Source: Microglena sp. YARC (Eukaryota; Chlorophyta; Chlorophyceae; Chlamydomonadales; Chlamydomonadaceae). Taken from it: a stretch of 64,000 nt of DNA. A program made the position numbers and the translations under genes. This document shows, in pieces, positions 8,701-62,198 of this stretch. The stretch spans positions 58,938,195 through 59,002,194 of the forward strand of contig CM039462.1 of NCBI GenBank assembly GCA_022414725.1, written 5' to 3'. How positions within the stretch are numbered: the stretch's first letter is position 1; each line of letters starts with the position of its first letter. A model generated the notes under the pieces. That model made no database searches. It was given only the letters and a program-made list of their open reading frames with translations, and had not been told where the DNA came from.

Positions 8701-8984
8701 CCCCTTTGCATGACTCCTTGCTGTGCATTGATTGCCATGCCCAGCACCTTCTCTGGCAGCTTGACCCCTTTGCATGACCTGGCAGCTTGACCCCTTTGCA
8801 TGACCCCTTGATGTGCATTGATTGACCCCCTTGCCGGGCCCCCCTTTGCTGCGCATGCATGAAAGACTGTTTTGATAAGTCGGTAAGGCTTTGCTTCATG
8901 CCTTGCGCTTTCACCTCTTTTCATGCCTTGCGCTTTCACCTCCTTTCATGCCTTGCGCAAATTGCCTTTCGCATCATGCATTGC

Positions 8985-11165: not shown

Positions 11166-11254
11166 AGTTTGGTTTTTCTCTATATCTGAATCTGATTTTG
11201 AATCTGAATCTGAATCTCAATCATTTGATTTACCAACCTATTTGTCTTCCGCAG

Positions 11255-11541: not shown

Positions 11542-11545
11542 GGCT

Positions 11546-12380: not shown

Positions 12381-12482
12381 CTGCGAAAGACAAATAGGTT
12401 GGTAAAGCAAATGATTGAGATTCAGATTCAGATTCAAAATCAGATTCAGATATAGAGAAAAACCAAACTCAGAATACCCATA

Positions 12483-14125
12483 GTCCTCCCGATCATAATC
12501 GGGAGCACTGTCAAACCCAACGAACGAATGATTGAGAAAAACCAAACTCAGAATACCCACGGTCCTCCCGATCATAATCGGGAGCATTGACAAACCCAAC
12601 GAGCGAATGATTGAGAAAACCAAATTCGGAATACACACATTCCTCCCGATCATAATCGGGAGCAGTGACAAACCCAACGAGCGAATGATTGAGAAAACAA
12701 AACTCGGAATACACACAGTCCTCCCGATCATAATCGGGAGCACTGACAAACCCAACGAGCGAATGATTCAGGTAACATGTACTCGGCATTTTTTATTTTT
12801 TTATTTTTGTACTCGGCATACCCATAGTCCTCCTGATCATAATCGGGAGCATTGTCAAACCCAACGAACGAATGATTGAGAAAAACCAAACTCAGAATAC
12901 CCACGGTCCTCCCGATCATAATCGGGAGCATTGACAAACCCAACGAGCGAATGATTGAGAAAACCAAATTCGGAATACACACATTCCTCCCGATCATAAT
13001 CGGGAGCAGTGACAAACCCAACGAGCGAATGATTGAGAAAACAAAACTCGGAATACACACAGTCCTCCCGATCATAATCGGGAGCACTGACAAACCCAAC
13101 GAGCGAATGATTCAGGAAACATGTACTCGGCATTTTTTATTTTTTTATTTTTGTACTCGGCATACCCATAGTCCTCCTGATCATAATCGGGAGCATTGTC
13201 AAACCCAACGAACGAATGATTGAGAAAAACCAAAATCAGAATACCCACGGTCCTCCCGATCATAATCGGGAGCATTGACAAACCCAACGAGCGAATGATT
13301 GAGAAAACCAAATTCGGAATACACAGAGTCCTCCGATCATAATCGGGAGCATTGTCAAACTCAACGATCGAATGATTGAGAAAACCAAATTCGGAATACA
13401 CACATTCCTCCCGATCATAATCGGGAGCAGTGACAAAACCCAACGAGCGAATGATTGAGAAAACAAAACTCGGAATACACACAGTCCTCCCGATCATAAT
13501 CGGGAGCACTGACAAACCCAACGAGCGAATGATTCAGGTAACATGTAGTCGGCATTTTTTTTTTTTTTTTTTTGTACTCGGCATACCTATAGTCCTCCCG
13601 ATCATAATCGGGAGCATTGTCAAACCCAACGAACGAATGATTGAGAAAAACCAAACTCAGAATACCCACAGTCCTCCTGATCATAATCGAGAGCATTGAC
13701 AAACCCAACGAGCGAATGATTGAGAAAACCAAATTCGGAATACACAGAGTCCTCCCGATCATAATCGGGAGCATTGTCAAACCCAACGAGCGAATGATTG
13801 AGAAAACCAAATTCGGAATACACACAGTCCTCCCGATCATAATCGAGAGCACTGACAAACCTAACGAGCAAATGATTCAGAAAACATGTACTCAGCATTT
13901 TTTTTTTTTGTTTTGTACTCGGCATACCCATAGTCCTCCCTATCATAATCGGGAGCATTGTCAAACCCAACGAACGAATGATTGAGAAAAACCAAACTCA
14001 GAATACCCACAGTCCTCTTGATCATAATCGGGAGCATTGTCAAACCCAACGAGCGAATGATTGAGAAAAACCAAACTCAGAATACCCACAGTCCTCCGAT
14101 CATAATCGGGAGCATTGTCAAACCC
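12483..14125 (-). repeat. 79-bp palindrome array (copy 1, minus orientation)
   Basis: About 20 further units have the same palindrome in inverse orientation. The segments 12500-12843 and 12844-13187 are almost identical, a higher-order repeat of 344 bp that includes a T-rich divider (12790-12808, 13134-13152). Other dividers are at 13555-13573 and 13898-13908. It is the inverted partner of 9975-11165. Confidence 0.85.
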
Positions 14126-14165
14126 CAACGAGCGAATGATTGAGAAAACCAAACTCGGAATACAC

Positions 14166-16559
14166 ACAAACTCTTCTTGCACGTATCCGCTGATGCAATG
14201 GACAACAAGAAGACTAATCTTCTTCAGTCACGCCACTTCTCACATACAAAGAAGACTGCAGGAGGTGATCTTCTAAAGACACGCATCATGTGTGAGTACA
14301 AATACAGCGCACGTAGGACATGTCCTCCCGATCATAATCGGGAGCATACACAGTATTTTAAAACTTGAAATGATTACTTAACAAAATAATGCTAATATTC
14401 TGACTTCATGTTTCCTTCTATGTTAACTCAGGATTATTCTCCCAGGGAAGAGGCTTCATTGGTTATTGGGCTTTGCCATTCTACTCGCAGTCCATCAATC
14501 TGACTATATCATGCTTCCAACATTTCTTCAACCGGGTCCTTGAAGAAGAGGGGCAGCTTCCACCGTATTGCTTCTTGCAAATGGACAACGCGGCAAAGGA
14601 CAACAAGAACGCTTTCATGTTCGCATACTTGTCCTTGCTGGTTGAGATGAACTGGTTTGAGGAGTGTACGTCCATTTCCTCCCTCCCAGACACACACATA
14701 GCAATCTTGACCAAAAGTACTCTGTGATTCTCGCAAGGTTAAAGAACATGGAAGTGTACACCCTGGACCATCTGATGGGCATTGTTGGTAACTTATTCAA
14801 GAGAATGGGCCCTTACACAAGGCAAGACGTCGTGACCTCTATAGGGGACTTCTCCGCTGTCCTCCTAGACAACGTTTACAAGTTGTTCGGACATGGCACT
14901 AGCACCGTCAAAGGAGTTAATCGCCGTTTACACGCATTCAAGATAATGAAAGGTCCCAACGGGAGAGGTCGGTAAGAATACTGATATACTGATATTTACA
15001 AAATTAAATGCTACCGTGCGTGTATGTACTGTCTGCACAATGCTCCCGATTATGCTCGGGAGGAATATGGGTGTGCCATGTCCTCATTGATTTTACATGT
15101 ACAGTCTTCAATAGAAACTAAATGATACAAAGGAAGTTGTACCTAGGACCTAGGATGTATTATCCAAGGGATGCTCCCGAGTATAGTCGGGAGGAATATG
15201 GGTGTCCTAAATGATTCACTAATATACAATACATGTTTGCACACCAACAATTGCAGGGTCTACTACAAGGAGTATGACGAGTCAGGATCTTGGAGAGGAC
15301 AGAGGGACAATGACCTGAACCTATTTACGTCCTCCAAGGCTTCCCACTGGTGGACACCATAACAGTATTTAAGGAAAGCCCCCAAGATCAAGATTGAAGA
15401 GCTCGAGAATATCGAGGCAAACTGGGCGGCTGTCTGAAGACTATTCATAACGAGAAGCCCGGAGGTGACGTCCTTGCAGCCACATGGCCGATGGTCCTGT
15501 ACAAACCGCCGGTGACGACCGTGCAGACCCGTAGCTGATGTCCGTGTACGACACGCAGCGGAGGACCTTTGGTTCTAGAACCAGCAGCCCGATGACCAGC
15601 AGCCGATGGATGAACCAGCAGCCGATGCCCAACTCCCCATGCCCAATCCTCAAACATATTGCCGAGATGCTTTCGTGAAACTTGGGAAGCCAGCAATAAG
15701 TGGTTGGTGGACTGATTTCTCAAAGTTGAGAAGAGTTATTGGAGCACTCAAACCCAGATGATGCTGTGACTGGGGAGTACCCGAAAGACCAACATTTTGT
15801 CGACTTCCCATCGGAGTTGTCAGAACCAGTCGTGCTTCTGACACAGTCTGAGAAATCAATGGCCAAGCGCTGATAGCAGCATGGATGACTTGTCCATGGA
15901 CGTGTGTCAGACCTTTTACTGCAAGTAACGAGATTTGCCAAGACTAAGAAGGTTGCACACACTTTGAGACTATATGGAAAGGCCAGAGGAGGAGATGTGT
16001 TGTACTTATATTCTCACAAGCGGACGAAGCCGATAGAAGAATAGCCACGAGCCCACTACTGATTTGGTTGTTTGTCATGTCGCTGTGGTCAAGGTACAAA
16101 TGGATGACTCTAGCGAGATTGAGAGGATGGGACGTGGTGGAGGTCAAATCCTACCATGAATGGAGAAGTGAATGTGTGTATTTAAAGCCCTTACTCTGGG
16201 GCTCAGAATTTGGTGTTACACATGAAACACCCAACTTGGCCGAAGATTGGATGACCACAAGCTGTGTGCCTATTACCGTGGGGTTAGGAGAAAAGCACAT
16301 GACGGCATATTCCCATGACGCATTTCAATTTAGCTGCGAAACCCCCAAGGGTTATGAGATCAGAGAAAGTACCACACAATCATGCTCCTAGCTTGTCATC
16401 ATGAGAGACACCAGGGCAGAGCTGTGCAATCGATGGAGACAACTGCAGACATTGCTGAAGAGGAGAGATGGAGGAGGAGGAAATGGGGATGGACATGGAG
16501 GAGGAGAGAGAGAAGAGAGACAGGAGGGGGGAGGAGGAGAGTAAAATGTTGACACATAG
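14166..16559 (+). pseudogene. DUF7869 transposase-like gene, 5'-truncated (copy 1)
   Basis: Three exons are visible: the end of one at 14166-14291 (SADAMDNKKTNLLQSRHF), then 14432-14971, then 15257-16559. The splice signals are TAACTCAG before 14432, GTAAGA after 14971 and ATTGCAG before 15257. Exon two has CFLQMDNAAKDNKNAFMFAY and, after a frameshift near 14665, FLPPRHTHSNLDQKYSV. The Gly of the conserved GHTH is Arg here. The last exon ends in a Glu-rich tail and has many frameshifts. Both introns contain one or more CTCCCGA...TCGGGAG palindromes (about 14326, 15043 and 15174). The first half of the gene is missing at the array junction near 14165. Confidence 0.7.
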
Positions 16560-16913
16560 CCTTTTGTACTAAATAGAAAAATTAAGATGAATTATACTTA
16601 CGATTTTATGAAGATGTACAAAACTGAATAATCTGCCTGCCCCACCTTATAACCTCCGCTTTTCCTTTATTTCACATTATAATTGTAAGACAGAAATGAT
16701 TTAACACCTTTTTGTTACAAAATATGCATATTCAACGTTTTTAACATTCGCAATCTGTACGTTTCTCCGTCTTTCAAGCTCATTTCAAGCATATTTTGTC
16801 AAAATTGACTACAATCTTACGTTTTTATCAAGATTGAATTTGACAAAAGCATCAAAAGACCCCAAAAATGATTGTAAGATCTGGAAATCCGTTCGAAGCA
16901 AGGAACGCCCATT
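16560..16913. repeat. Right terminal region of copy 1
   Basis: This is an AT-rich non-coding end with degenerate CTTAC...GTAAG motifs. It has the same segment as the left end of copy 2 (TGAGCTTGAAAGACGGAGAA, inverted here) and terminates in the inverted repeat. No gene is seen. Confidence 0.65.
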
Positions 16914-32485: not shown

Positions 32486-32652
32486 AATGGGCGTTCCTGC
32501 CTCCCGGTGGATTTTTACTGGTTGCGAAACATGGCCTGGAGCGGAATTGTGATTCCTCTGTGCTGATATCTCAGGCTAGCGAGTCGTTCCTGGAGACTCT
32601 AAATTCTGAGTAGAAATTTCAAAAAATCCGCTGGGAGGAAGGAACGCCCATT
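32486..32652. mobile_element. MITE of the AATGGGCG family (167 bp)
   Basis: Terminal repeats AATGGGCGTTCCTGCCTCCC and, inverted, AATGGGCGTTCCTTCCTCCC flank an internal sequence without coding potential. The flanks are AAGG and TAGG, a 4-bp duplication with one mismatch. The ends resemble those of the two large transposons. Confidence 0.8.
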
Positions 32653-36468: not shown

Positions 36469-37364
36469 GCAGGACACGCGGACGTCTGCAAGCTGCTGAT
36501 GGACCAGGTGGTGGCGGGCCCCGGGTTCAGGGCGCGTGCGACCTACGGAGACAGCTGGGCATTGAGATTGGCTGCCCAGAACGGACACGCGGACGTCTGC
36601 AAGCTGCTGATGGATTCAGAGGTGGCTGGACTTGAGTTCAGGGCCAGGGCGAACGCTTGCAACAAATGGGCGTTCCTGCCTCCCGGCCGATTTTTTTAAA
36701 TTTCTAATCAGGATTTAGAGCCTCTTGAACGACTCGCTAGCTTGAGACATAAGCACCAAGGAATCACAATTCCGCTCCATACCATGTTTCGCAACCAGTC
36801 AAAATCGGCCGGGAGGCAGGAACGCCCATTAACAGCTGGGCATTGAGATTGGCTGCCCAGAACGGACACGCAGATGTGTGCAGACTACTTATGGACCCCA
36901 CGGCGGCAGGTGGCCCCGAGTTCCGGGCCCGGGCGAGCTACGGCGACAGGTGGGTCTCGTTTGCTGCAGCCAGGGAAGGCCATGCGGACGTCTGCAAGCT
37001 GCTGATGGCGGCCCCCGGGTTCCCGGCACGCGCGAACGCCGCCAACAGCAGGGCCCTGTGGGTGGCGGCCGCTGCAGGCCACGCAGACGTGTGCAGATTA
37101 CTAATGGACCCCGTCGTGGCAGGAGGCCACGAGCTCCGGGCCCGGGCGAACGCCGTCGACAGCAGGGCCTTTTGTGAGGCGGCCAAGGCAGGCCACGCGG
37201 ACGTGTGCAAACTACTAATGGACCCCGTGGTGGCGGGAGACGAGTTCGTGGAACGCGCGAACGCCGTCAACAGCATGGCCTTGTGCGAGGTGGACAAGAC
37301 AGGCTACGTGGAAGTCTGCAAGGTGCTGATGGATCTAGTAATGGTGGCGGCAGGCAGGCCATGA
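36469..37364 (+). pseudogene. Ankyrin-repeat gene fragment interrupted by a MITE
   Basis: The plus-strand frame reads GHADVCKLLMDQVVAGPGFR and DSWALRLAAQNGHADVCKLL, is interrupted by a MITE at 36665-36830, and resumes at about 36835 with a tetranucleotide duplication. It continues for five or six more units and ends VMVAAGRP. There is no F-box and no start codon upstream of the first unit, so the gene is 5'-truncated. The repeats are more GC rich and more diverged than those of the minus-strand genes, which suggests an older or separate family member. Confidence 0.7.
36665..36830. mobile_element. MITE of the AATGGGCG family with exact AACA duplication
   Basis: The 166-bp element has terminal repeats AATGGGCGTTCCTGCCTCCC (left) and the exact inverse at the right. 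It is flanked by AACA at 36661-36664 and 36831-36834. Removing it restores an uninterrupted ankyrin repeat. This gives a clean proof of the 4-bp target duplication of the family. Confidence 0.9.
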
Positions 37365-41392: not shown

Positions 41393-41395
41393 TTT

Positions 41396-44371: not shown

Positions 44372-44384
44372 TACTGGTGCAAAT

Positions 44385-44711: not shown

Positions 44712-46776
44712 CTAGCTGCTGTCAAGATTCACAAGGGCCCTGTACTCGGGGCCAGACGCCTCTGTATCAATCAAAAGCAAGCAGACATCGGCGTGACCAG
44801 CCTTCGCAGCCGCCCCCAAAGCCCTGCTGTAGCTAGAGTTTGCGAGGGCCCTGAACTCACTTCCAGCCACCTCTGGATCCATCAGCAGCTTGCAGACATC
44901 TGCGTGACCTGCCTTGGCAGCCGCCCACAATGCCATGCTGTCGCTAGAGTTCGCCCTGGCCCTGAACTCAAGTCCAGCGACCTCTGGATCCATCAGCAGC
45001 TTGCAGACATCTGCGTGACCAGCCTTGGCAGCCGCCCACAAGACCCAGCTGTCACTAGAGTTCGCCTGGGCCCTGTACTCAACTCCAGCCACCTCTGGAT
45101 CCATGAGCAGCTTGCAGACATCTGCGTGACCTGCCTTGGCAGACGCCCCCAAGGGCCTGCTGTTGATATTGTTCGCCCTGGCCATGTGCTTGAGTCCAGC
45201 CACCTCTGGATCCATGAGCAGCTGGCAGACATCTGCGTGACCTTCCTTTGCAGCCGCCCACAAGGCCCTGCTGTCGATATGGTTCGCCCTGGCCATGTGC
45301 TTGAGTCCAGACACCGCTGGATCCATCAGCAGCTTGCAGACATCTGCGTGACCGGCCTTTGCAGCCGCCCACAAGGCCCTGCCGTTGATATGGTCCGCCC
45401 GGGCCCTGAACTCAATTCCAGCCACCGCTGGATCCATCAGCAGCTTGCAGACATCTGCGTGACCTTTCGTTGAAGCCGCCCACAAGGCCCAGCTGTTGAC
45501 AGAGTTCGCCTGGGCCCTGTACTCAAGTCCAGCCACCTCTGGATCCATGAGCAGCTTTCAGACATCTGCGTGACCTTCCTTGGCAGCCAGCCACAATGCC
45601 CAGCTGTCGATAGAGTTCGCTCGGGCCCTGAACTGAACTCCAGCCACCTCTGGATCCATGAGCAGCTTGCAGACATCTGCGTGACCTTCCTTGGTAGCCA
45701 CCCACAATGCCCAGCTGTCGCTAGAGTTCGCCACGGCCCTGAACTCAAGTCCAGCCACCGCTGGATCCATCAGCAGCTTGCAGACATCTGCGTGACCGGC
45801 CTTCGCAGCCGCCCACAAGGCCCTGCTGTCGCTAGAGTTCGCCAGGGCCCTGAACTCAAGTCCAGCCACATCTGGATCCATCAACAGCTTGCAGACATCT
45901 ACATGACCTGCCTTGGCAGCCTCACACAAGGCCCTGCTGTCTCTAGGGTTCGCCCGGGCCCTGAACTCAAGTCCAGCCACTGCTGGATCCATCAGCAGCT
46001 TGCAGACATCTGCGTGACCTTCCTTTGCAGCCACCCACAAGGCCCTGCTGTCTCTAGAGTTTGCCAGGGCTCTGAACTCAAGTCCAGCCACCGCTGGATC
46101 CATGAGCAGCTTGCAGACATCTGTGTGACCTTCCTTTGCAGCCTCCCACAATGCCCAGCTATCGCTAGAGTTTGCTAGGGCCCTATTCTCAAGTCCAGCC
46201 ACCTCTGGATCCAAGAGCAGCTTGCAGACATCTGCATGACCTTCCTTGGAAGCCAGAGACAATGCCCAGCTGTCTCTAGAGTTTGCTATAACCCTGTACT
46301 CAACTCCAGCCACCGCTGGATCCATCAGCAGCTTGCAGACATCTGCGTGACCTTCCTGTGCAGCCACCCACAAGGCCCTGCTGATTCTAGAGTTAGCCCA
46401 GGCCCTGAACTCAATTCCAGCCACCGCTGGATCCATCAGCAGCTTGCATACATCTGCGTGACCTTCCTTTGCAGCCAGCCACAATGCCAGCTGTCGCTAG
46501 AGTTTGCCAGGGCCCTGAACTCAAGTCCAGGCACATCTGGATCCATCAGCAGCTTGCAGACATCTGCGTGACCGTCCTTCGCAGCCGCCCACAAGGCCCT
46601 GCTGTCGCTAGAGTTCGCCAGGGCCCTGAACTCAAGTCCAGCCACCTCTGGATCCATCAGCAGCTTGCAGACATCTGCGTGACCTTTCTGTGCAGCCACC
46701 CGCAAGGCCCAGCTGTCTCTAGAGTTCGCCCTGGCCCTGAACACAATTCCAGCCACCTCTGTATCCATGAGCAGCT
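44712..46776 (-). pseudogene. F-box/ankyrin gene E, 3' part, split by transposon copy 2
   Basis: About 18 ankyrin units run in one frame from 46484 to 44712, apart from a stop at 45556-45558 where the Cys codon of DVCKLL has become TGA. A one-base deletion near 46488 shifts the frame upstream (46436-46768). The gene ends abruptly at 46776 at the insertion point of the large transposon and resumes at 61541. The three lesions make it a clear pseudogene. Its last units (45160-45330) have a diverged spacer (HMARANNINSRPL). Confidence 0.75.
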
Positions 46777-47123
46777 AATGGGCGTTCCTGCTTCCCAACG
46801 GATTTCCAATCTTACGATCACTTTTTGGGGGTCTTTTGATACTTTCCAAATGCAATCTTACGATAAAAATCGTAAGATTGTAGTCAATTTTTACAAAATA
46901 TGCTTGAAATGAGCTTGAAAGACGGAGAAACGTACAGATTTCGAATGCTACAACGTTGAAATGCCATATTTTGTAACAAAAGGTGTTAACATCAATTCGT
47001 GTCTTACAATTATAATTGTAAGAAATAAAGGGAAAGCGGACGGGTTAATAAGTCGGCAGGCAGAATTCAGCTTTTACATCTTACAATAAAAATCGTAAGT
47101 ATAATTCATTAGTAAAAAAACGG

Positions 47124-50100
47124 CTATGTGTCAAACATCTTACTCCTCCTCCTCCCCCCCTCCTCGTCCTCCTCTTCCTCCTCCTTCTCCTCCTCCATGT
47201 CCCCATCCCCATCTTCCTCCTCCTCCATCTCCTCCTCCTCAGCAATGTCTGCATTGTCTCCATCCGATTGCACAGCCTCTGCCCTGGTGTCCTTCTCAAT
47301 GGATTGACAAGCTAGGAGCATGCTTGTGTGGTACTTTCTCTGGATCTTCATACCCTTGGTGGGTTCGCAGCTAAATTGAATGCGTCAATGGGAATATCGC
47401 CGTCCATGTTGCTTTTCTCCTAACCCCCACGGTAATAGGCACAAGCTTGTGGTCCATCCAATCTTCTGGCCAAGTTGGGTATTTGTGTTTCAGTGTACAC
47501 CAACTTCTGAGCCCCAGAGTACAAGGGCTTTAAATACACACATTCCACTTCTCCATTCACTGGTAGTGATTTGACCTCCACCACGTCCCATCCTCTCAAT
47601 CCGCTAGAGTCATCCATTTGTACCTTGACCACAGCGACATGACCAACAACCAAATCAGTAGTGGGCTCGTAGGCTATTCTTCTATCCGGCTTCGTCCCTT
47701 GTGAAGAATATAAGTACAACACATCCTCCTCCTCTGGCCTTTCCATATTAGTCTCCAAAGTGTGTGCGACCTTCATAGTCTTGGCAATCTCGTTACTTGC
47801 AGGTAAAATGTCTGACACAATGGACAAGTCATCCAATGCTGCTATCAAGCGCTTGGCCATTGATTTCTCAGACTGCGTCAGAACACGACTGGTTGCTGAC
47901 AACTCCGATGGGAAGTCGACAAAAAATGTTGGTCTTTCGGGTACTCCCCAGTCACAGCATCATCTGGTTGAGTGCTCCAATAACTCTTCTCAACGTTGAA
48001 GAAATCAGTCCACCACTTATTGCTGGCTTCCAAGTTTCACGAAGCTTCTCGGCAATATGTTTGAAGGACTGGGCATGGATGGGCCATCGGCTGCTGGTTC
48101 ATCCATCGGCTGCTGGTCATCGGCTGCTGGTTCTAGAAGGTCCTCCGCTGCGTGTCGTACACGGACATCAGCTACGGGTCCTGCACGGTCGTCACGGCGG
48201 TTTTTTACAGGACCATCGGCCATGTGGCCTGCAAGGACGTCACCTCCGGGCTTCTCGTTATGAATAGTCTTCCAGACAGCCGCCCAGTTTGCCTCGATAT
48301 TCTCGAGCTCTTCAATCTTGATCTTGGGGGCTTCCTTAAATACTGTTCTGGTGTCCACCATTGGGAAGCCTTGGAGGACGTAAATAGGTTCAGCGTCATT
48401 GTCCCACTGTCCTCTCCAAGATCCTGACTCGTCATACTCCTTGTAATAGACCCCTGCAATTGTTGGTGTGCAAACATGTATTGTATATTAGTGAATCATT
48501 TAGGACACCCATATTCCTCCCGACTATACTCGGGAGCATCCTTGGATAATACATCCTAGGTCCTAGGTACAACTTCCTTTGTATCATTTAATTTATATTG
48601 AAGACTGTACATGTAAATCAATGAGGACATGGCACACCCACATTCCTCCCGAGCATAATCGGGAGCATTGTGCAGACAGTACATACACGCTTGGTAGCAT
48701 TTAATTTGTAAATATCAGTATATCAAGTATTCTTACCGACTCTCCCGTTGGGACCTTTCGTTATCTTGAATGCGTGTAAACGGCGATTAACTCCTTTGAC
48801 GGTGCTAGTGCCATGACCGAACAACTTGTAAACGTTGTCTAGGAGGACAGCGGAGAAGTCCCCTATAGAGGTCACGACGTCTTGCCTTGTGTAAGGGCCC
48901 ATTTTCTTGAATAAGTAAGTATAATACCAACAATGCCCATCAGATGGTCCAGGGTGTACACTTCCATGTTCTTTAACCCTTGCGAGATCACAGAGTACTT
49001 TTGGTCAAGATTGCTATGTGTGTGTCCGGGAGGGAGGAAATGGACGTACACTTCCTCAAACCAGTTCATCTCAACCAACAAGGACAAGTATGCGAACATG
49101 AAAGCGTTCTTGTTGTCCTTTGCCGCGTTGTCCATTTGCAAGAAGCAATACGGTGGAAGCTGCCCCTCTTCTTCAAGGACCCGGTTGAAGAAATGTTGGA
49201 AGCATGATATAGTCAGATTGATGGACTGCGAGTAGAATGGCAAAGCCCAATAACCAATGAAGCCTCTTCCCTGGGAGAATAATCCTGAGTTAACATAGAA
49301 GGAAACATGAAGTCAGAATATTAGCATTATTTTGTTAAGTAATCATTTCAAGTTTTAAATACTGTGTATGCTCCCGAATATGCTCGGGAGGACATGTCCT
49401 ACATGCGCTGTATTTGTACTCACCCATGATGCGTGTCTTTAGAAGTTCACCTCCTGCGGTCTTCTTTGTATGTGAGAAGTGGCGTGACTGAGGAAGATTA
49501 GTCTTCTTGTTGTCCATTGCATCAGCGGATGCGTGCAAGAAGAGCTTCGGATACTGTTCAGACAGTTTTTCACGGATGTCATACCTACGCGACCAATGGA
49601 AATCTGATTACGGTGCACAGCCTGACTCTGACGAAGTTCATCAACTGCTGGCTGAAACGTAGTGGTCAGGAGTCTGGCTCGGTACTTGACGCAGTCGTCG
49701 CACTTGGCAAAAGGCTGCCAAGTCTTTATCTTCACGTTCCACCAATGTGCATGCCATAGTTTACGCAAACTGCTGTATAATGTTCTGGGAGGAACCATGC
49801 CGTTCTTCTTCATGTCCCTAAAGACAGCTTGCTTGCTTGGAAATATGCCGCAATGTAAAAAAATCAAAGGGCGCATGACCTTAGATTTTTTCCTTCCTCT
49901 AGATCCTGGAGCATATGAAGTCTGGTGCGGCATTGACTCCCCAAACTCATCTACGAGAGATTTCATCGCAGCGTTGAAATTGTCCCTCAACACTGCGGGT
50001 GCACTCCTCTTCCTCCTCACCTTCACAGCAGGTTCAAACCTAGACAGGGTCCAATGGAACGAGGTTAGGTCGCTTATTGTTATGGATGCTCCCGATTATA

Positions 50101-50842
50101 ATCGGGAGGGTAGAATGGATCATTATACGGTTGCCTGATGTATTGGGTTGTCCCGAGCATAATTGGGAGGAAGCAAAGTGCACTGTAACCACATGAGAAT
50201 TCGAGATAACTTACTCTCTGTTGTTTTTGATCTGACCACTTATCGCAAGCCATGCATTTGAACCGATTACGGATGCAGCCTGATAAAATGACTTGCAAAC
50301 GTCAACGCCCAATATCCTGAACGAGCAAAATAATCGTTAAGTTCGAGTCATAATACATTCACGCATCAGGCTCATCAGGCACTTCAGGCGCAAGATCAAA
50401 TTATTGACAACCTACCTTTGTGAGTAATGGTTCTACACGGATGTAACAATTTCAAATTTCAAATTACAACCTACCTTGTCGACACACTCCTTGTCCCTGT
50501 CTTGCGATCCCGGTTGGTTGCCAGTGCATTCAATTCGATGTAGCATCGACGTTGCCTTTCGGCAGGTTCGAGCTCGGCGAATTCATTTCGTCGTTCGCGA
50601 ATTACATCCTGTGGGAGTACCAAGTGACATGTGTCCTTGCACTTACAGGTAATAAGCTTGTCGAATTGATTCACGGTATCAGAGTTGGTAACTATGTCGC
50701 TCTCTTCGGCTGGCACGGTTTCGATCGCATCGTCGCCACTGGAATTCTCGAAATCTAGTTGTCGACGTCGAGGTACCGGCAACATAGGCTCAACCCAGTG
50801 GTGTATGCCCAATCCAATTCCTGGGGAAGGGGTAGCGTCCAT
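47124..50842 (-). pseudogene. DUF7869-type putative transposase gene, five exons
   Basis: The exons, in transcription order, are 50842-50475, 50316-50215, 50039-49424, 49284-48737 and 48453-47124, with GT donors and CAG/TAG acceptors. Exon 1 starts MDATPSPGIGLGIHHWVEPM. Exon 2 has ILGVDVCKSFYQAASVIGS. Exon 3 has WQPFAKCDDCVKYRARLLTT and SADAMDNKKTNLPQSRHFSH. Exon 4 has FLQMDNAAKDNKNAFMFAYL and HFLPPGHTHSNLDQKYSVIS, the Asp-Asn and GHTHxxxDQ signatures of DUF7869, a domain of large eukaryotic transposons with an RNase-H-like order of acidic residues. Exon 5 ends in a Glu-rich tail. Frameshifts occur near 49590 and in exons 4 and 5. The introns hold the CTCCCGA palindromes at about 50090, 50150, 49370, 48655 and 48523. 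The transposase role is inferred from the domain and element context. Confidence 0.72.
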
Positions 50843-51172
50843 TTTGCCCCTTCTCCTCAAAGAAACTAAGCCTGCCAAGATGATAAGAAGGAATCGACAG
50901 TGGGCCTGCCGTCGGGTGAGTGATCGCGGAAGCCGGGACCAGCCAAATGTACCGGGGTCGATCTGTACCGCTACCAGCAGACTAGACCGGGACCAGCAAC
51001 TTCCGACTATACTCGGGAGCTTTGACATAGACCGGGCCTAGCAAACTGCAAGGGCTAATACTGTAAGAATCAATTCGGGAACACAAGACTGTATTTTGCA
51101 GTACGTGAATAACTAGAGGCCATAGTTCGACGCTGTCCAAGGTCCTATCAGTTTGCTTGCTATGTCGGTATT
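50843..51172. promoter_or_regulatory. Divergent intergenic region between the two transposon genes
   Basis: About 330 bases separate the two start codons. They include an imperfect palindrome half (CCGACTATACTCGGGAG at 51003-51019), similar to the intron palindromes, in the shared promoter region. No TATA-like element is obvious. The minus-strand ORF extends through it but lacks a better start than 50842. Confidence 0.45.
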
Positions 51173-52044
51173 ATGCCGCCGAAGGACCCTGACGAGGTGA
51201 ATTCTTTTAAGAGACCCCTTCTTCCTAACTTCCAACCTAAGCAAACCGATTCACGTCGTAAACAAACGCGGAGAGACATTTTCTCCAACTTCGTAACAAA
51301 CCATTCAAGGGTTGTTCCCGGGAAAATACCTAAGCAGCAGCCTGTGCAAACCTAAACCTTTACGCTCTGGTGCTGTAGCTACCCAGCCTGCGCAACCTCG
51401 ACGACCAGCTGCAGTGCCTGCGCAACCTCGACAACAGCTGCAGTGCCTGCGAAACATCGACTGTTGCAACCTAGGACTCTGTCCTTCAATACAGTTGAGA
51501 GCTTTGCGAACAGTAGCATGTCCCCTCCAAAAGGTGGTGGTGTCACAAGCAAGTCTAAACAAGTCCGTGCAGCAGAAAACTTACCTGAGGAACGTACACC
51601 AGGAGCTGATGCGGTAACACGTGAAGGGGTAAGAGAGGGGCCACCACAACAACCACCTATTGGTTGGGTTGAAGGACCTCACAACCCTGATGGACCCCTT
51701 GGATTTACCGAGATCGCCAGAGATGAAAGTGATGCAGACTCCAAATTGTATTGGGCACCATATGTCACCTTCACCTACGTGGGTAATGAAGAGGATCGAT
51801 TAGGCGTGCACAAGATAGGTATCGTCGCATGGGACATTGAACGAGATGCGCTTCTTCGCAAGGGTAGGAAGTCCCCTATCAGCTCTGCATAGACGACTTG
51901 ATGGACTATGGAGGAAGGACAGAACAAGATGGAAAGCAAATCTTTATTCCGTGCCCGGCTATAGTCAAGTAAGTTCAGATGGGTGTTGCTTATGAATTTG
52001 GACTGCATGTATTATGAGTACATGTTTTCTGTATCATTCTCTTG

Positions 52045-53590
52045 TTGGGTTTGTCAATGCTCCCGATTATGATCGGGAGGACTGTGCGTATTCCGAGTAC
52101 ATGTTTTTTGAATCATTCGCTCGTTTGGTTTGTCAATGCTCCCGATTATGATCGGGAGGACTGTGTGTATTCCGAGTTCATGTTTTCTGTATCATTCGCG
52201 CGTTGGGTTTGTCAATGCTCCCGATTACGATCGGGAGGACTGTGTGTATGCCGAGTACATGTTTTCTGTATCATTCTCTCGTTGGGTTTGTCAATGCTCC
52301 CGATTATGATCGGGAGGACTGTGTGTATGCCGAGTACATGTTTTCTTAATCATTCGCTCGTTGGGTTTGTCAATGCTCCCGATTATGATCGGGAGGACTG
52401 TGTGTATGCCGAGTACATGTTTTCTGTATCATTCGCGCGTTGGGTTTGTCAATGCTCCCGATTATGATCGGGAGGACTGTGTGTATGCCGAGTACATGTT
52501 TTTTGAATCATTCGCTCGTTGGGTTTGTCAATGCTCCCGATTATGATCGGGAGGACTGTGTGTATGCTGAGTACATGTTTTCTGTATCATTCGCGCGTTG
52601 GGTTTGTCAATGCTCCCGATTATGATCGGGAGGACTGTGTGTATTCCGAGTACATGTTTTCTGTATCATTCTCTCGTTGGGTTTGTCAATGCTCCCGACT
52701 ACGATCGGGAGGACTGTGTGTATGCCGAGTACTTGTTTTCTTAATCATTCGCTCGTTGGGTTTGTCAATGCTCCCGACTACGATCGGGAGGACTGTGAGT
52801 ATGCCGAGTACATGTTTCCTGTATCATTCGCTCGTTGGGTTTGTCAATGCTCCCGATTATGATCGGGAGGACTGTGTGTATTCCGAGTACATGTTTTCAG
52901 TATCATTCGCGCGTTGGGTTTGTCAATGCTCCCGATTATGATCGGGAGGACTGTGTGTATGCCGAGTACATGTTTTCTGTATCATTCGCGCGTTGGGTTT
53001 GTCAATGCTCCCGATTATGATCGGGAGGACTGTGTGTATTCCGAGTACATGTTTTCTGTATCATTCTCTCGTTGGGTATGTCAATGCTCCCGACTACGAT
53101 CGGGAGGACTGTGTGTATGCCGAGTACTTGTTTTCTTAATCATTCGCTCGTTGGGTTTGTCAATGCTCCCGACTACGATCGGGAGGACTGTGAGTATGCC
53201 GAGTACATGTTTCCTGTATCATTCGCTCGTTGGGTTTGTCAATGCTCCCGATTATGATCGGGAGGACTGTGTGTATTCCGAGTACATGTTTTCAGTATCA
53301 TTCGCGCGTTGGGTTTGTCAATGCTCCCGATTATGATCGGGAGGACTGTGTGTATGCCGAGTACATGTTTTCTGTATCATTCGCGCGTTGGGTTTGTCAA
53401 TGCTCCCGATTATGATCGGGAGGACTGTGTGTATGCCGAGTACATGTTTTCTGTATCATTCGCGCGTTGGGTTTGTCAATGCTCTCGATTATGATCGGGA
53501 GGACTGTGTGTATGCCGAGTACATGTTTTTTGTATCATTCTCTCGTTGGGTTTGTCAATGCTCCCGACTACGATCGGGAGGACTGTGGGT
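52045..53590 (+). repeat. 79-bp palindrome array in intron 1 of the ParB/methyltransferase-like gene
   Basis: About 20 units each contain CTCCCGATTATGATCGGGAG or a compensated variant (CTCCCGACTACGATCGGGAG), then GACTGTGTGTAT and a GCCGAGTACATGTTTTCTG segment. Higher-order duplication is visible: 52519-52914 is repeated at 52914-53309 (395 bp, five units). The array lies between the donor GTAAGT at 51969 and the acceptor at 53641-53642. Confidence 0.9.
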
Positions 53591-54589
53591 TTTTCTCTAC
53601 ATAATCTGAATCATTTGCTCTACCAACCTATTTCTTATGCAGCGTCCACGATGACGGTACCGTGGAAGTAACAGTCAACGCGGGCGAGCAGGTTTTGGGA
53701 TGCGGTGTCATGGACGAATGGACCAAGGCGCGCCAAGAGCCAATGAACATTGAAGTCGTTGCTGGTGGACCAGCCTTCAATGTTACGGCTACGCACACTC
53801 ACTGGTTGAGGTTTCGCGGCGAATGCAGGCCAATGTGTGGAGCTGATGCTTTCTGGTCGACACTCACCCTTGCGGGATCCAAGCCAGCCCAGATGAAGTT
53901 ACTAGCGTTCGGAGGCCCATGTCTGGAGCCCTTTCAAGCATACCAGTTCACATTCTTGCTCTACTCATGGTGGTATAAAATGCGCGGCCCTTCTGTTAGC
54001 GTCGGCAAGGGCGGATTTATCGCCGACAAAGACCTGGTGGAAAGTAAGGCGTGGGTTGAGACATGCGAAGGAAAGCTCGGGAACGATTTCAAGGACTTTG
54101 GTCCTGGCGACAGGAGGTCACCTCGATCTTTACAAAAAGAGCCTTCACCTGATGCCGGTAAGAGAGCAATCAAACGGACTGTACTGGTGCACCACGGCTC
54201 ATGTCGAATTTTCAAATCTGACAGGTACATTTTGAATATTACGTACGCTGTGAGATGTACACCGTTCGAAACAACCATTGTGTCCTAACCGCAACTGCCG
54301 CTTTCAAATTCGATAGGATATTGCGTAACTTCTGCACTCTTTCCATTTCCTTCAGGCTCCGCGAAGAAGGCAGGAAGGAAGCGACGAGATCAGCCCACTA
54401 CAATCAACGAAGAGGGCAGATCGCCGACAACTTTGTAAGTTCATCGTATTCAAATTGTTATCTCCTTTCGCAATCGATCACTCGTTCAGCGTGAATGAAC
54501 CATTGCAGTCAAGTCTATTCCCTGCATCGTAGTCATGTCAATCGCATCAACTTAAACACGCGCGTCACTGATTTTGAATACGGTCCTCC

Positions 54590-56745
54590 TTGGGCGTTCC
54601 GATTATAGCCGGGAGGACATCGGATGTCCAATGTTCAATCTTCCGCAATCTTATCTAATCAACTAAGTCAATGCTCCCGATTATAGTCGGGAGGACACTG
54701 GATGTTCAATGCTCAAACTTCCGCAATCATTCACTAATCAAGAATGTCAATGCTCCCGAGTATAATCGGCAGGACTCTGGATGTTCAATGCTCAATCTGC
54801 AGCAATAATTTACCAATCAACTATGTCAATGCTCCCGAGTATAATCGGCAGGACATCGGATGTTCAATGTTCAATCTTCCTCAATCTTTTCTAATCAACT
54901 ATGTCAAAGCTCCCGAGTATAGTCGGGAGGACATTGGATGTTCAATGTTCAATCTTCCGCAATCTTATCTAATCAACTAAGTCAATGCTCCCGATTATAG
55001 TCGGGAGGACACTGGATGTTCAATGCTCAAACTTCCGCAATCATTCACTTATCAAGTATGTCAATGCTCCCGAGTATAATCGGCAGGACTCTGGATGTTC
55101 AATGCTCAATCTGCAGCAATAATTTACCAATCTACTATGTCAATGCTCCCGAGTATAATCGGCAGGACACTGGATGTTCAATCTTCAACCTTCCGCAATA
55201 ATTTACCCATCAAATATGTCAAAGCTCCCGAGTATAGTCGGGAGGACATCGGATGTTCCATGTTCAATCTTCCGCAATCTTTTCTAATCAACTAAGTCAA
55301 TGCTCCCGATTATAGTCGGGAGGACACTGGATGTTCAATGCTCAAACTTCCGCAATCATTCACTAATCAAGTATGTCAATGCTCCCGAGTATAATCGGCA
55401 GGACACTGGATGTTCAATGCTCTAACTTCAGCAATCATTCACTAATCAAGTATGTAAATGCTCCCGAGTACAATCGGCAGGACACTGGATGTTCAATCTT
55501 CAATCTTCCGCAATAATTTACCAATCAACTATGTCAAAACTCCCGAGTATAGTCCGGAGGACATCGGATGATCAATGTTCAATCTTCCGCAATCTTATCT
55601 AATCAACTAAGTCAATGCTCCTGATTATAGTCGGGAGGACACTGGATGTTCAATGCTCGAACTACCGCAATCATTCACTAATCAAGTATGTCAATGTTCC
55701 CGAGTATAATCGGCAGGACACTGGATGTTCAATGCTCAAACTTCAGCAATCATTCACTATTCAAGTTTGTAAATGCTCCCGAGTATAATCGGCAGGACAC
55801 TGGATGTTCAATCTTCAATCTTCCACAATAATTTACCAATCAACTATGTCAAAGCTCCCGAGTATAGTACGGAGGACATCGGATGATCAATGTTCAATCT
55901 TCCGCAATCTTATCTAATCAACTAAGTCAATGCTCCCGATTATAGTCGGGAGGACACTGGATGTTCAATGCTCAAACTTCCGCAATCACTCACTAAACAA
56001 GTATGACAATGCTCCCGAGTATAATCGGCAGGACACTGGATGTTCAATCTTCAATCTTCCACAGTAATTTACTAATCAACTAAGTCAATGCTCCCGATTA
56101 TAGTCGGGAGGACATCGGATGTTCAATGTTCAATCTTCCGCAATCTTTTTCTAATCAACTAAGTCAATGCTCCCGATTATAGTCGGGAGGACACTAGATG
56201 TTCAATGCTCGAACTACCGCAATCATTCACTAATCAAGTATGTCAATGCTCCCGAGTATAATCGGCAGGACACTGGATGTTCAATGCTCAAACTTCCGCA
56301 ATCATTCACTAATCAAGTATGTCAATGCTCCCGAGTATGATCGGCAGGACACTGGATGTTCAATCTTCAATCTTCCGCAATAATTTACCAATCAACTATG
56401 TCAAAGCTCCCGATTATAGTCGGTAGGACATCGGATGTTCAATGTTCAATCTTCCTCAATCTTTTCTAATCAACTAAGTCAATGCTCCCGATTATAGTCG
56501 GGAGGACACTAGATGTTCAATGCTCAAACTACCGCAATCATTCACTAATCAAGTATGTCAATGCTCCCGAGTATAATCGGCAGGACACTTGATGTCCAAT
56601 CTTCAATCTGCCGCAATAATTTACCAATCAACTATGTCTAAGCTCCCGAGTATAATCGGCAGGACACTGGATATTCAATGTTTAATATTCCGCAATCTTT
56701 CTGTAATCAACTATGTCAATGCTCCCGACCATAGTCGGGAGACAC
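54590..56745 (+). repeat. 79-bp palindrome array in intron 3
   Basis: About 28 units share the same period and palindrome core but have a different linker (GACACTGGATGTTCAATGCT, CTTCCGCAATCATTCACTAA). Two palindrome types alternate: TTATAGTCGGGAGG (perfect) and GTATAATCGGCAGG (one mismatch). Same period but unrelated linker compared with intron 1 indicates independent amplification from a common 20-bp core. Confidence 0.9.
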
Positions 56746-58188
56746 TGGATGTTCAATGTTCTGACCCCTCACTAAGTCAAATATGTTTTATCAATCCTTC
56801 AGGTTTGCTGATCCCAAGAAGAACCCTGCTGGACACGAGGGCAAAGGCAAGCGTGCTGCGTCGCAGGCTGCAGACAATGCACCAGCCGCAAAGAAACAAA
56901 CTCCTGTACCGAACACAAGATTCATTCCTTGGAGGAGGATTCAGACTTGAACTCAAGAAGTTCTGTCGACACTGTGCCCGGGCCATCTGACGACGATGAT
57001 GCACCCAAAACCGCTCCTAAGAAAAGAGGTCGCGGTCAGCCTGGTTCTCAGAAGAAGACTATGACGAAGGCGAAGAGATCACCGGCAGGAGAGAAGAAAG
57101 GGGACAGCATTGGAAACATCAAAGGTGATTTGGCTAAGGCTAAGGCTTTCCTGACCGACAAGCATTTTGGTGGAGAGCATTCATTGGACTGCACGAAGTT
57201 CCTCCCTCCAAAGCTACCTGTCCGAATCCGTGTGTTGGACCCTGTTCGAGTCGATCAACTCCTCGCCAATTTTTTTGAAAACCACAATGGCCACTGGGAA
57301 GGTATTGTTCATGGACATCAGCAAGGACCTGAAGAATGTATCTCCAGGTTGGGCTAATATTGATCCAAGCAGGCTGGAACAGACGTTCAACAACATCTCC
57401 AATGTGAAAGGGGAGTTTGGCGAGCCATGGATCATCGGAGGGTACCACAGCTCCCAAGCCTTCATCAAGTGGGCAGCAGACCGCCCTGGTGAAATTCCTC
57501 TGCGCAATTGCTTCGTGTACCGGTTGTCAGAGGTGGAGGGTGCCACGTACGACGAGAAGCTTCAGAACGCTCGCCTCCTTTCCCTTTTGGACAACACAAG
57601 CGGCCAGTCGACTGAGGGGTACGACTCTCAGCCATTTTTGGTTTCTACCTTCCTGTGGCGTGAATTGTACCTTCAGGCAGGCTGTCCCGCTCGGACTGAG
57701 AAGGGGCATCAGTCAGACCAGTACAACAACTTCAAAACTCTGTGTGTCACCGGGACGAGAAGTTGACGAAGGCTGTTGCTAGCCAGGGGGGTGCCACCCG
57801 TGCCACGCTTCAAAGTCGTGAGCTTGGACGAAGAGTCCTACAAGAAGGCTTTCCTGATCATGTCCTCCATGGACGACCGGAGAAGATCGGCGCCGACCAC
57901 CTTGTTGAGCGCCTACAGAACGTGGAGCCTCCGCCTCCGCCAAACGATGAGGAGGAAGAGGAGGGGGACGACGAGGAAGCTGCACCTGGATCCCATGGGA
58001 AAAGGGCTAAGGGAAAGGCTAAGGACAAGATGAGGTCGGTCCTCGTTGAGGACATGAAGGAAACTATGAAGCTGCCACCTGGAGAGCTGAAGTTCTTCCT
58101 GAAGTCCGTGACCGACGACTTGTATGTCCACGAGTATGAAGCTTTCAAGATCAAGGACGAAGTGGACAATGTCGCGTTCACTACCGCG

Positions 58189-58534
58189 GTAGGTTCATGT
58201 TGTATATTAAGTTATTTTCAGAGTTGATCGGGATGATTGTGATGAAGTACGGTGGTGTGCAATTTTTCGTTATTGACAGCGGTTCACTTCTCGCATTGGA
58301 CGATGCTTCCGAGTATGATCGGGAGGACTGTGGGTGTGCCATGTCTCGTTATTGACATAAATTCACTTCTCGCTTTGGACGATGCTGACGAGTATGATCG
58401 GGAAGACTGTGCGTGTGCCATATCTAGTTATTGACGGCGAATCCCTTCTTGCATTGGATGATGCTGCCGATTATGATCGGGAGATGCTTCCTAGTATGAT
58501 CGTTATCATGACAAGAAAACTCTTTTATTCGCAG
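58189..58534 (+). repeat. Intron 4 with four palindrome motifs
   Basis: The intron (donor GTAGGT, acceptor TTCGCAG) contains degenerate palindromes near 58305, 58383, 58462 and 58487, at about 79-bp spacing (for example GATGCTTCCGAGTATGATCG). It looks like the beginning or the decay of an array. Confidence 0.7.
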
Positions 58535-59622
58535 ACGTTTGCATCGGCATACAAGGCTTCGTTGGTTCATTACAAGACAGAAGTGTCAGCGGGCTTCGTC
58601 ATCTACATCATCGACAGGCTTCTCAAGCAACACAATGTCTCGCCTGTGTCCTTTCGTGACGACTTGAAGTTACGCTTCAATTCTGGTTCGCCGCTTGACC
58701 TTGGGGCAAAGGGCTTCACGCACATGCACGCCTTCTTGGGCGATAACGCGGAACCCGCCGTTACCAACAAACCCCTTCCGCTGGGTGGCATCGCCTTCAG
58801 CAGCAAGGCAGCTTCTGAAATCTTGATCGGGGGCATTCGATCCGATGCTTCGATTCCCGCACATCAGGTCTTCTCCGGGTGGCTGAGGGACTATACCGCC
58901 CAGAGAAGGGATTGGTATGGTATACCACCTAGGGATGAAGTTTTGATGCCCAAGCTAACCATCACCGAGATCACGCAAGTGGGAGGTCTGCTGAGTTTCG
59001 CGACAGACAAGGAGGCGCTAAACCAGCTTCTCGACATGTGGTTTTCTGTGATCAGGACAAGGGTCCAGCAAAAAAACCAGGCACAGATTATCAGTACCCT
59101 GGCCGCTAGCATTGACGACATGAAGTTGCTAGTTCAGCCTGACCAGGAGTACCCAATGGCGACAGACGGCCTCCAACAACCAATCTGTGATGATATGTCC
59201 AAGTTCCTCGAGGCCTCCCGTGAACTGCTTTTCGCACACCCCATTCCGCCTCGCAGTATCCATCTCGATGCGTTGAACACCATCAGGGAGTCGTGGGTTT
59301 CCTCGTCATGGACTTAACAAGGCGGAGGAAAGATGGAGCAGCAGGGATTCCGATGTTGAACCTGACAGAGGAGGTCTTGTTGTCATTGGCAGTAAAGTAC
59401 GGTGATTTGCCAGTGTGGAAAAGGGGAGAGCCTTCCGAACGCTTTTTCCGTCTCTACGATGGTGGACAGATGTATCCACACCTGATGTCGGCAGCTACAG
59501 CAGTGTTCATGGACGCTGACCACCAGATTGGAGCCGGTCGGGTCCAGCTAGAGACGGCAACAGTCAGCGCGCACCTTTACAACATGAAGGCGAAAACATT
59601 CCAGTGTGATGAAATCCGTAAG

Positions 59623-59830
59623 GTGCGTAGATGTTTAAAATGATAGACTACAAGTTGAAAAGTTGACGCTCCGATCATAATCGGGAGGATGATTTGTTAA
59701 GCATGTCTTTTCACCACTTCAAAATCTATTACACATAATCCTTCCGATCACAGTCGGGAGCAACACGTTGTTCAACTTGTCTTCCAACCATAATCTAACT
59801 GACTTGTACATATTTCGTTTACTCTTGCAG
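59623..59830 (+). repeat. Intron 5 with two inverted palindrome motifs
   Basis: The intron (donor GTGCGT, acceptor TCTTGCAG) carries GCTCCGATCATAATCGGGAG at about 59668 and CTTCCGATCACAGTCGGGAG at about 59741. It is the smallest intron of this gene with the motif. Confidence 0.7.
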
Positions 59831-60857
59831 GTGCCTGGCAAACTGATCGACTTGGTGATCATCGACCCCTGTCTCACTGGCGATGAAAAGGGACCGTTGT
59901 GGCTCGTCGATGAAGACTCTTGGAGTTCGACTGATGTGATCGACATGCTGCGGAACTTAGCAGGCCAGAATCGGAAGTTTGCCTCAGTGTGCCATGTGGT
60001 CGTGTACACCAACCAAGAGGAAGGCAGCAGGTTCCTTGTGGCTTTCAGAGAAGCTGGCGTGGCTGACATTCGCCTTACCCACATTACACGCATGGGGCCA
60101 GACTTCAAGACACATTCCACCAGCATCGCCATCTCTGGGATCTTGCATCAAGGTGCGGGACAAGCGGGCCCGTCCTCGAAAGCTTCCATTTCTTCTTCTG
60201 GTCTTGCCGCTGCCATCACGGTCTTCCTACCGCCTATTGACGCACAGAAAAGTGCCATTGGACGCCCCGATTAGCGGCTGCTCGATGAGTCCCAAACAAG
60301 TTGGATACCGCAGGAGAAGTGTCGCCGAATTCCGTCACTTTGTGCGGGAGCTTAGCTCTGTTGGCAACTATGTGATGTGCATGCAAGCTGGCAATGCCTC
60401 GGGCATGCTAGCGGCTTTGCTAGAGAGGAGGAACGCCATTGGCTTGGACTGTATCACTCAGAAGCTTGGGGCTGCTGCATGGCGTTTGAACATGTTTGCA
60501 AAAACGGAGCAGGCTATTCTATCACGTCTCGAAGCCTGTACTGATGCAGATAATGAAACAAGGGTGAGGACGGCGGTACTGGTTCAGGAAGACATTGACG
60601 CAGAGTTTCGCGACAACCCTGCTGAGCCCAGTGAGGAAATGATGCAAAAGCTAGAGACGTGTCTCAAGACATATCGCGAGAAGAAAGCCGCAGATTGGCC
60701 TGAGGACGAGTTCGAGGCCTGCAAGGAGAAGGTTCTGGAAAGCTGCATCAGTGCAGGAACAGTAAAAGACCTGATGAGGACCAAGAAGTTAGATTTAGCC
60801 CTCGTTGGGTTGCGTGCCAACTTGTTCCCAGAGCAAGACGAGTCAGTTAGCACATGA

Positions 60858-61540
60858 TCTGTCAGCACTAAGTGCAGAAGTTAGCACCAATGGACTTGTT
60901 GGCAGCAGTGCAACATTAGCATTGTGCACAAGTTTCACGAGTGTACTTGTTTGCACCATCGAACACACATTTTGAGTGATTTCAGGATTCTAGGATGGCA
61001 GGTTGCAGATTTCAGGATTAAAATTTGTGTTATGTACATAATGAGCTTATGAGGTATGAAATTATGAATAATAAGTCCTGAGTTAGGAGTTATTAGTTCT
61101 GACTTGTATAAGGTACATATAAGTTCTGAGTTGTGAGTTATAAATTATGAGGTACACATAAGTACAGATTTCCGAGTCGTAAGTACTAAGTTGTAATTTT
61201 GAACTGTTGAGTTGTGAGTTTTGAGATAAATAATTATGAGCAATGCGTTCAAGACTTTGTAAACAGCTTTCACCTTCCTCTTGACTGTCCTCTACAATTG
61301 ATTTTGTATTCCAATACTTTCTCTCTCTCCAAACGAGCAAATCAATGTTACAATTGAAATTGAAGGGAATAGTCTCTTTCTCAGGAATACAACAAAACAA
61401 TCTTACAAAATAAATTGTAAGATATTTTCGTAAAAGCCACCAAAAAAGCAAAATCAATTAATTTGCGAAAACGATCTTACAATATTTATCGTAAGATTTC
61501 AGTAAAATAAAAAATCCGTTCGGAAGCAGGAACGCCCATT
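60858..61540. repeat. Right terminal region of copy 2
   Basis: This is AT-rich, non-coding sequence with short GAGTTATGAG-type repeats. It is followed by the segment shared with the left end of copy 1 (CAATTGAAATTGAAGGGAAT) and two subterminal palindromes. The ORF at 61083-61457 on the minus strand is not supported. Confidence 0.7.
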
Positions 61541-62198
61541 AGCTTGCAGACATCTGCGTGACCTTCCTTGGCAGCCTCCCACAATGCCCAGCTGGCGTTA
61601 GAGTTTGCCAGGGCTCTGATCTCAAGTCCAGCCACCTCTGGATCCAAGAGAAGCTTGCAGACATCTGCGTGACCGGCCTTCGCAGCCGCCCACAAGGCCC
61701 TGCTGTCGCTAGAGTTCGCCCGGGCCCTGAACTCAAGTCCAGCCACCTCTGGATCCATCAGCAGCTTGCAGACATCTGCGTGACCTTCCTGTGCAGCCAC
61801 CCGCAAGGCCCAGCTGTCTCTAGAGTTCGCCCTGGCCCTGAACTCAATTCCAGCCACCTCTGTATCCATGAGCAGCTTGCAGACATCTGCGTGACCTGCC
61901 TTGGCAGCCACATAGAGAAGCTTGTTTTCATTTGGGTCGCCCTCAATTGCAGGGCCCCCTTAACCTGTACAAGAGGATTGGACACCAAGCATTCTTCTAG
62001 AAGGTCGGCGCGCCCCCCTTTCGCCATCATCTCTCCAACTCGCTGTGGTGGTCGGATCAGTACGGTAATGGGCCATCCAGAAAATCTGTCGTGCAGAGTT
62101 TTACACACTAATACAATCTTGGGGTTGGAAGAGAATAGGGCAATACGATCAAGAATGTCATGGGGAAACGTTAGGAATGATTGCGTGGGCGAATGCAT
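61541..62198 (-). pseudogene. F-box/ankyrin gene E, 5' part
   Basis: The start is at 62198 (MHSPTQSFLTFPHDILDRIA). The F-box-like part, VCKTLHDRFSGWPITVLIRP and GGRADLLEECLVSNPLVQVK are intact. A frameshift near 61935 leads into the ankyrin frame (61486-61911). Three to four units follow before the transposon junction at 61541. Together with 44712-46776 it forms one gene that was cut by the transposon. Confidence 0.75.

Follow-up and report, generated by a model that had tools for sequence, protein, structure and literature searches.

The Sola superfamily of DNA transposons, reportedly first described by Bao et al. 2009, includes the closest described counterparts of the element analyzed here, a 14,764-bp DNA transposon denoted as element A. 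Element A occupies positions 46777-61540 of a 64,000-nucleotide stretch of contig CM039462.1 (Microglena sp. YARC, assembly GCA_022414725.1), hereafter the window, and carries a gene for a DUF7869 protein (gene 1) and a second gene (gene 2). Sola elements are described as having a DDD transposase, 4-bp target-site duplications (TSDs), and terminal inverted repeats (TIRs) of 11-1124 bp with variable ends, and they are mostly 2-9 kb long, with some above 15 kb (PMC10741241). In the brown alga Ectocarpus, Sola1-1_Ec32 is reported as a 21.5-kb element with a ParB/methyltransferase (MTase) gene on the strand opposite to the transposase, whose 1104-aa second product combines a ParB-like part with an N4C or N6A MTase (PMC12477816). 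The same paper mentions ParB/MTase proteins in transposons of green and red algae, for which it cites reference 50 and, as reference 51, Petroll et al. 2025.

Compared with Sola1-1_Ec32 as described, element A is likewise a large DNA transposon with its second gene on the strand opposite to that of the transposase, whereas its length is different, its MTase motifs are degenerate, and no ParB part was detected. The 1104-aa product compares with exons 4-6 of gene 2 (about 1,177 residues) by description only, and the green and red algal cases are likened to element A in the same manner, as transposons with an accessory gene. With regard to the described Sola features, we found a 4-bp TSD (exact in three of four complete elements), a 29-bp TIR within the range of 11-1124 bp, and sizes within the described range (14,764 bp for element A and 8,873 bp for a second copy, element B), while the DDD likeness is by conserved aspartates only. 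Since the TSD, TIR, and size fit and an opposite-strand ParB/MTase gene is described in an Ectocarpus Sola1 element, we tentatively place element A in or near Sola. The element probably represents a class II DNA transposon family with a DUF7869 transposase and gene 2 as an accessory gene, most likely in or beside Sola.

Ends, target sites and copies in the window

Element A is bounded by exact copies of AATGGGCGTTCCTGC in opposite orientations, at 46777 (+) and 61526-61540 (-), and its ends begin with AATGG. The left TIR (46777..46805, +) and the right TIR (61512..61540, -) are 29 bp long and pair with one mismatch (28/29 identical). When up to two mismatches were allowed, the 15-mer was found 10 times in the window, whereas 100 shuffles gave 0.20 occurrences on average and at most 2. 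The TSD AGCT flanks the element on the left (46773..46776) and on the right (61541..61544). Element A is inserted in an ankyrin-repeat array with units of 111 bp. Arrays of similar units are found at 34386-35444, 39406-40370, 41909-46776, 61541-61911, and 63622-64000, and they also hold the unbroken target GAGCAGCTTGCAGACATCTG, which was counted 17 times in the window. Because the unbroken target recurs in the window, the duplication is fixed as AGCT. The original prediction, made from the letters of the window, had called the termini, the 4-bp duplication, and the restored target directly readable, and these results agree with it. The 15-mer was also met in 85 stretches of viral contigs, none of which (0/85) continued with YTCC as the elements do, and we took these as chance or unrelated coding matches.

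Within the 64-kb window, in which all copies were counted, three further complete elements have the same ends. Element B (8041..16913; 8,873 bp) is oriented opposite to element A and has the TSD AAGT; its first 147 bp match the right end of A, and its last 2,750 bp or so match the left end. The other two are short elements at 32486..32652 (167 bp), where the flanks AAGG/TAGG differ by one base, and at 36665..36830 (166 bp), where the TSD is AACA, and they are 88% identical to each other. The exact TSDs are those of element A (AGCT), element B (AAGT), and the 166-bp copy (AACA). Partial relatives of the short elements were observed at 33930-34097, 36031-36190, 38783-38936, 41386-41549, and 62372-62532, with shorter matches elsewhere, and in the copies at 33930 and 41386 the right end is without the last bases of the terminal repeat.

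Comparing elements A and B over the gene 1 exon pieces, we aligned 1,433 bases and counted 21 substitutions along with 37 gap events, and the low divergence (~1.5%) leads us to regard the copies as young. In element B, the match to gene 1 (884 residues) starts only at about residue 291 and includes the DUF7869 part, and gene 2 is matched only as fragments of exons 2-3, which are present twice and inverted. Gene 2 exon 2 differs between B and A at 34/276 and 84/581 aligned bases, and element B therefore looks like a mosaic. In principle, short elements with the same ends in the window could bracket unrelated genes by chance. We judge such an origin of element A highly improbable, considering that in element B, too, this pair of outer ends encloses the same DUF7869 coding region and that one AGCT duplication brackets all of element A. 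EnSpm/CACTA ends begin with CACTA or CACTG, and the target duplication of Kolobok is TTAA; the former superfamily does not fit the ends beginning with AATGG, nor the latter the duplications AGCT, AAGT, and AACA.

The ends of both long elements also share a subterminal repeat, CTTACRAT/ATYGTAAG. In element A, the left subterminal zone (46777..47176) contains seven matches and the right one (61141..61540) three, and the outer 400 bp of element B contain four and three. The four outer 400-bp ends of A and B thereby hold 17 matches, compared with one in the remaining 40,363 bp of the window and none in the interiors (13,964 bp of A and 8,073 bp of B, 22,037 bp together). Transposase binding sites would be expected to cluster in this manner, and the repeats may be bound in this way.

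The DUF7869 gene as a candidate transposase

Gene 1 (47124..50842, -) is predicted to have five exons, at about 50842-50475, 50316-50215, 50039-49424, 49284-48737, and 48453-47124. All four predicted introns are GT-AG, and the protein P0008 reads through an extra stretch precisely where intron 4 sits. The joined model contains four frame breaks, and a fifth is probably located near the C-terminus, where we took the frame from P0001. The joined product matches DUF7869 (PF25273) with an E value of 4.9e-38 and 131.1 bits (cut-off 26), and the open reading frame of exon 4 alone gives 1.8e-33. Gene 1 is arranged head to head with gene 2, the divergent starts being at 50842 (-) and 51518 (+). The match, well above the gathering cut-off, confirms the DUF7869 assignment made from the letters alone and, along with the ends and the TSD, upholds the view of a large transposon with a DUF7869 gene and a divergent second gene.

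A protein search with gene 1 found 15 relatives at E <= 0.001 among 7,994 scored candidates, from EukProt (11, with one gene-name style), lgn (3), and jgi (1), and PF25273 was precomputed for 11 of the 15. The 11 EukProt sequences are distinct gene models that share 82-98% identity with one another in the aligned columns, with a median of 96%, a level that a multicopy element would be expected to show. On the relative P0007 (926 aa), which covers the DUF7869 domain without gaps, aspartate is found at positions 325, 328, 410, and 452 in 11/13, 13/15, 6/6, and 16/16 rows with a letter, respectively. Three rows deviate: P0005 has G at 325, P0014 has I at 328, where its start aligns poorly, and the exon-3 piece of the window, being out of register at these positions, has E and P. 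The first motif of the window reads DAMD, in frame after a break, and is not a row of that alignment. The three conserved aspartates (positions 328, 410, and 452 of P0007) lie in DxMD, MDN, and HTHSNLDQ. Based on these motifs, the DUF7869 protein is best read as a putative DDD transposase.

No other transposase or integrase profile was found in the pieces of gene 1 and gene 2 that were scanned. Ginger, which has a Gypsy-like integrase core, was set aside, as gene 1 matches DUF7869 only and the scanned pieces gave no integrase profile. Weak Pfam matches under the cut-off in the two genes (RBM1CTR, XRN_N, DUF3800, DUF6184, and PPL4) were discarded. Close-peptide scans, which reach mainly close relatives, found none in viral contigs for gene 1 exon 4, and none in viral or prokaryote contigs for the DUF7869 alignment.

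We also considered whether the DUF7869 protein could be a passenger or a regulator, with another, unseen transposase moving the element in trans. The short copies moved without any gene, gene 1 is frame-broken in A and is without its first ~290 residues in B, and the transposase role of DUF7869 is a prediction, all of which such an arrangement would accommodate. However, the DUF7869 part is common to both long elements at ~1.5% divergence whereas B is missing most of gene 2, the scanned pieces contain no other transposase profile, and the aspartates of gene 1 are conserved, so that we find a trans-acting transposase quite improbable.

Starting from the observed ends, TSDs, several window copies, DUF7869 match, and conserved aspartates, we propose that the family is a class II (cut-and-paste) DNA transposon of a microbial eukaryote. 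Its transposase would be the DUF7869 protein, in which the three aspartates would form the metal site of an RNase-H-like fold. The protein would act by binding to both the 29-bp ends and the subterminal repeats, cutting the element out, and integrating it at 4-bp targets selected with little stringency, which would be duplicated in the process. Gene 2 would encode an accessory DNA-binding or DNA-modifying protein with an MTase-like C-terminus.

The second gene and its introns

Gene 2 (51518..60857, +) has a joined model of 1,547 residues with six frame breaks and six predicted exons, at about 51518-51968, 53643-54224, 54356-54434, 56803-58188, 58535-59622, and 59831-60857, and all five predicted introns are GT-AG. 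The original prediction had assigned it both MTase-like and ParB-like parts. The MTase-like region of beta class (59831..60460, +) contains DPCL at motif IV and QAGNASG at motif I, and we scored it with consensus strings of our own choice, which makes the motif test a soft one. For motifs X-I-II, the C-terminus scored 62, while the best of 1000 shuffled gene 2 sequences scored 52, the best of 1000 shuffled consensuses 48, and gene 1 28. For motif IV, gene 2 scored 51, a value reached by 2/1000 shuffled gene 2 sequences and 4/1000 shuffled consensuses, and gene 1 scored 28. Furthermore, motif IV comes before motif I, which is the beta-class order. With moderate support, the C-terminus of gene 2 appears to resemble a beta-class DNA MTase. 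The intact catalytic motif of such MTases is of the DPPY type, but this position reads DPCL in gene 2. Catalysis by gene 2 is doubtful because the motifs read DPCL and QAGNASG.

The MTase half of the original assignment thus has the motif scores and order in its favor and the degenerate motifs and missing profile match against it, whereas the ParB half gained no support from Pfam, PHROGs, PDB sequences, or the motif test. For the latter, the prediction gave no coordinates, and we took the region at 57150..57760 (+) as the part that was meant. With the ParB consensus, gene 2 scored 33, which was reached by 670/1000 and 717/1000 shuffles, gene 1 scored 39, and the best-scoring place in gene 2 was outside this region. 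The ParB-like region had no match in Pfam or PDB sequences up to E 10, and neither region had one in PHROGs up to E 10.

Other searches with gene 2 gave few matches. Exons 5-6 had none among PDB sequences at E <= 1, and the MTase-like part had three (E 0.52-1.4), none of them a DNA MTase; one tblastn match of this part in phages (E 2, a hypothetical protein) was discarded. A single-sequence structure model of half of the MTase-like region had a predicted local distance difference test score (pLDDT) of 47.4, too poor for a fold search. A protein search with gene 2 found nothing at E <= 0.01 among 7,991 scored candidates, a search that low-complexity words may have swamped, and the search with exons 5-6 found one match (P0016, jgi) among 7,992 scored candidates, with 97% identity over 59% of the query. 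P0016 reads across one of the breaks of the window, and a copy of gene 2 without that frame break therefore exists. The close-peptide scan of viral contigs with exon 5, with the same reach as above, found no relative.

The predicted introns of both genes are marked by the 20-nt palindrome CTCCCGANTATNNTCGGGAG. Allowing up to three mismatches, we found it 96 times in the window, 59 times in A and 37 times in B, and nowhere in the window outside the two elements. In element A, 58 copies are in predicted introns and one is in the gene 1 leader, with none in the 7,556 bp of predicted exons. Seven of the nine predicted introns contain it: introns 2, 3, and 4 of gene 1 have 2, 1, and 2 copies (intron 1 has none), and introns 1, 3, 4, and 5 of gene 2 have 20, 28, 3, and 2 (intron 2 has none). 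Introns 1 (51969..53642, +) and 3 (54435..56802, +) of gene 2 contain tandem arrays of a 79-bp unit, and since their 20 and 28 copies form such arrays, the independent events are few. When six intron pieces were folded, four gave a single hairpin of 6 or 7 bp, and in the other two neighboring copies paired; the folding energies were modestly below those of shuffles (z -0.31 to -2.15). The repeat may be a splicing aid, an intron seed, or a satellite tolerated only in introns.

Placement of the family and its surroundings

Several observations weigh against the proposed DUF7869 transposon family in or beside Sola. In one of the four complete elements, the two flanking copies of the duplication differ by a single base (AAGG/TAGG). 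Both genes are frame-broken in A and B is without the first ~290 residues of gene 1, so that the window is without a complete, demonstrably active copy. For P0007, a full-length relative, AlphaFold gave a model (mean pLDDT 41.7) too poor to position the aspartates or to show the fold, although its weak strand/helix pattern would be compatible with a DDD transposase. In the pieces of gene 2 that were scanned, no Pfam match was above the cut-off, and its MTase motifs are degenerate (DPCL at motif IV, QAGNASG at motif I). The likeness to Sola and to the ParB/MTase cases was judged from published descriptions. As for the frame breaks, the gap events between A and B (37) exceed the substitutions (21), and 24 of the 37 fall within a single part of B that lies roughly 1 kb away from a gap of exactly 1000 N. 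Since the gaps are in excess and clustered near the N gap, and an Rpb3/Rpb11-like gene in the window is also split, many of the frame breaks are probably assembly errors. The N gap itself (17321-18320) lies about 400 bp beyond element B, whose nearer end is gap-rich compared with A.

The original prediction went further in suggesting, if confirmed, a new superfamily or a strongly modified known one. Our literature search found no paper naming DUF7869, these ends with this exact gene pair were not found described in the parts of the literature that it covered, and the close-peptide scans gave no relatives in prokaryote or viral contigs, as could be expected if DUF7869 were a superfamily of its own, distinct from Sola, with the MTase-like gene as a frequent partner. 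However, a 4-bp TSD and DDD are Sola features (PMC10741241), the same kind of accessory gene in a similar layout is described for the Ectocarpus Sola1 element (PMC12477816), and only fragments of gene 2 remain in element B, so that the pair is not obligatory. A separate superfamily is therefore less likely and is not demonstrated by these data, and we regard element A as most likely a variant of Sola or of its neighbor.

The surroundings of the elements contain single open reading frame genes for a protein kinase (PF00069, E 1e-7) and a CAP protein (PF00188, 3.4e-5), as well as the ankyrin arrays. The Rpb3/Rpb11-like gene (32664-33826, -) is split over two frames, its matches to PF01193 (E 3.9e-5) and to PF13656 (E 1.1e-4) falling below the respective cut-offs, and a membrane protein starting with MCWNA is encoded at 2847-3575. 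A fused Rpb3/Rpb11, arrays of F-box/ankyrin paralogues (F-box being our own reading), and an MCWNA membrane protein are features that we take to be giant-virus traits. The window could be DNA of a giant virus, endogenised or not, or else an algal contig that carries an insert of this kind. Close-peptide scans of viral contigs with three flanking genes, again reaching mainly close relatives, found none. Pieces of IS630/Tc1-type transposases were also observed at 1733-2266 (-; DDE_3, E 1.1e-7) and at 7382-7936 (-; HTH_Tnp_IS630, E 0.0007, under its cut-off), and four perfect copies of ATAAACCCT at 62265-62300 form a telomere-like sequence.

For DUF7869, an uncharacterised domain, two elements with shared ends, subterminal repeats, and 4-bp duplications suggest a candidate role as a transposase. 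A similar gene layout is already reported from a brown-alga transposon, and gene 2 may add another case to the few algal transposons for which prokaryote-like DNA-modifying proteins have been reported. In a bolder reading, which we hold to be unlikely, DUF7869 would serve as transposase in a superfamily that is not yet described and occurs in microbial eukaryotes; its large members would have an MTase-like partner and hairpin repeats strictly in spliceosomal introns and would jump into giant-virus DNA, with possible carriage between hosts. If the surroundings are indeed giant-virus DNA, the finding would also be relevant to the ways in which these transposons might pass from host to host.

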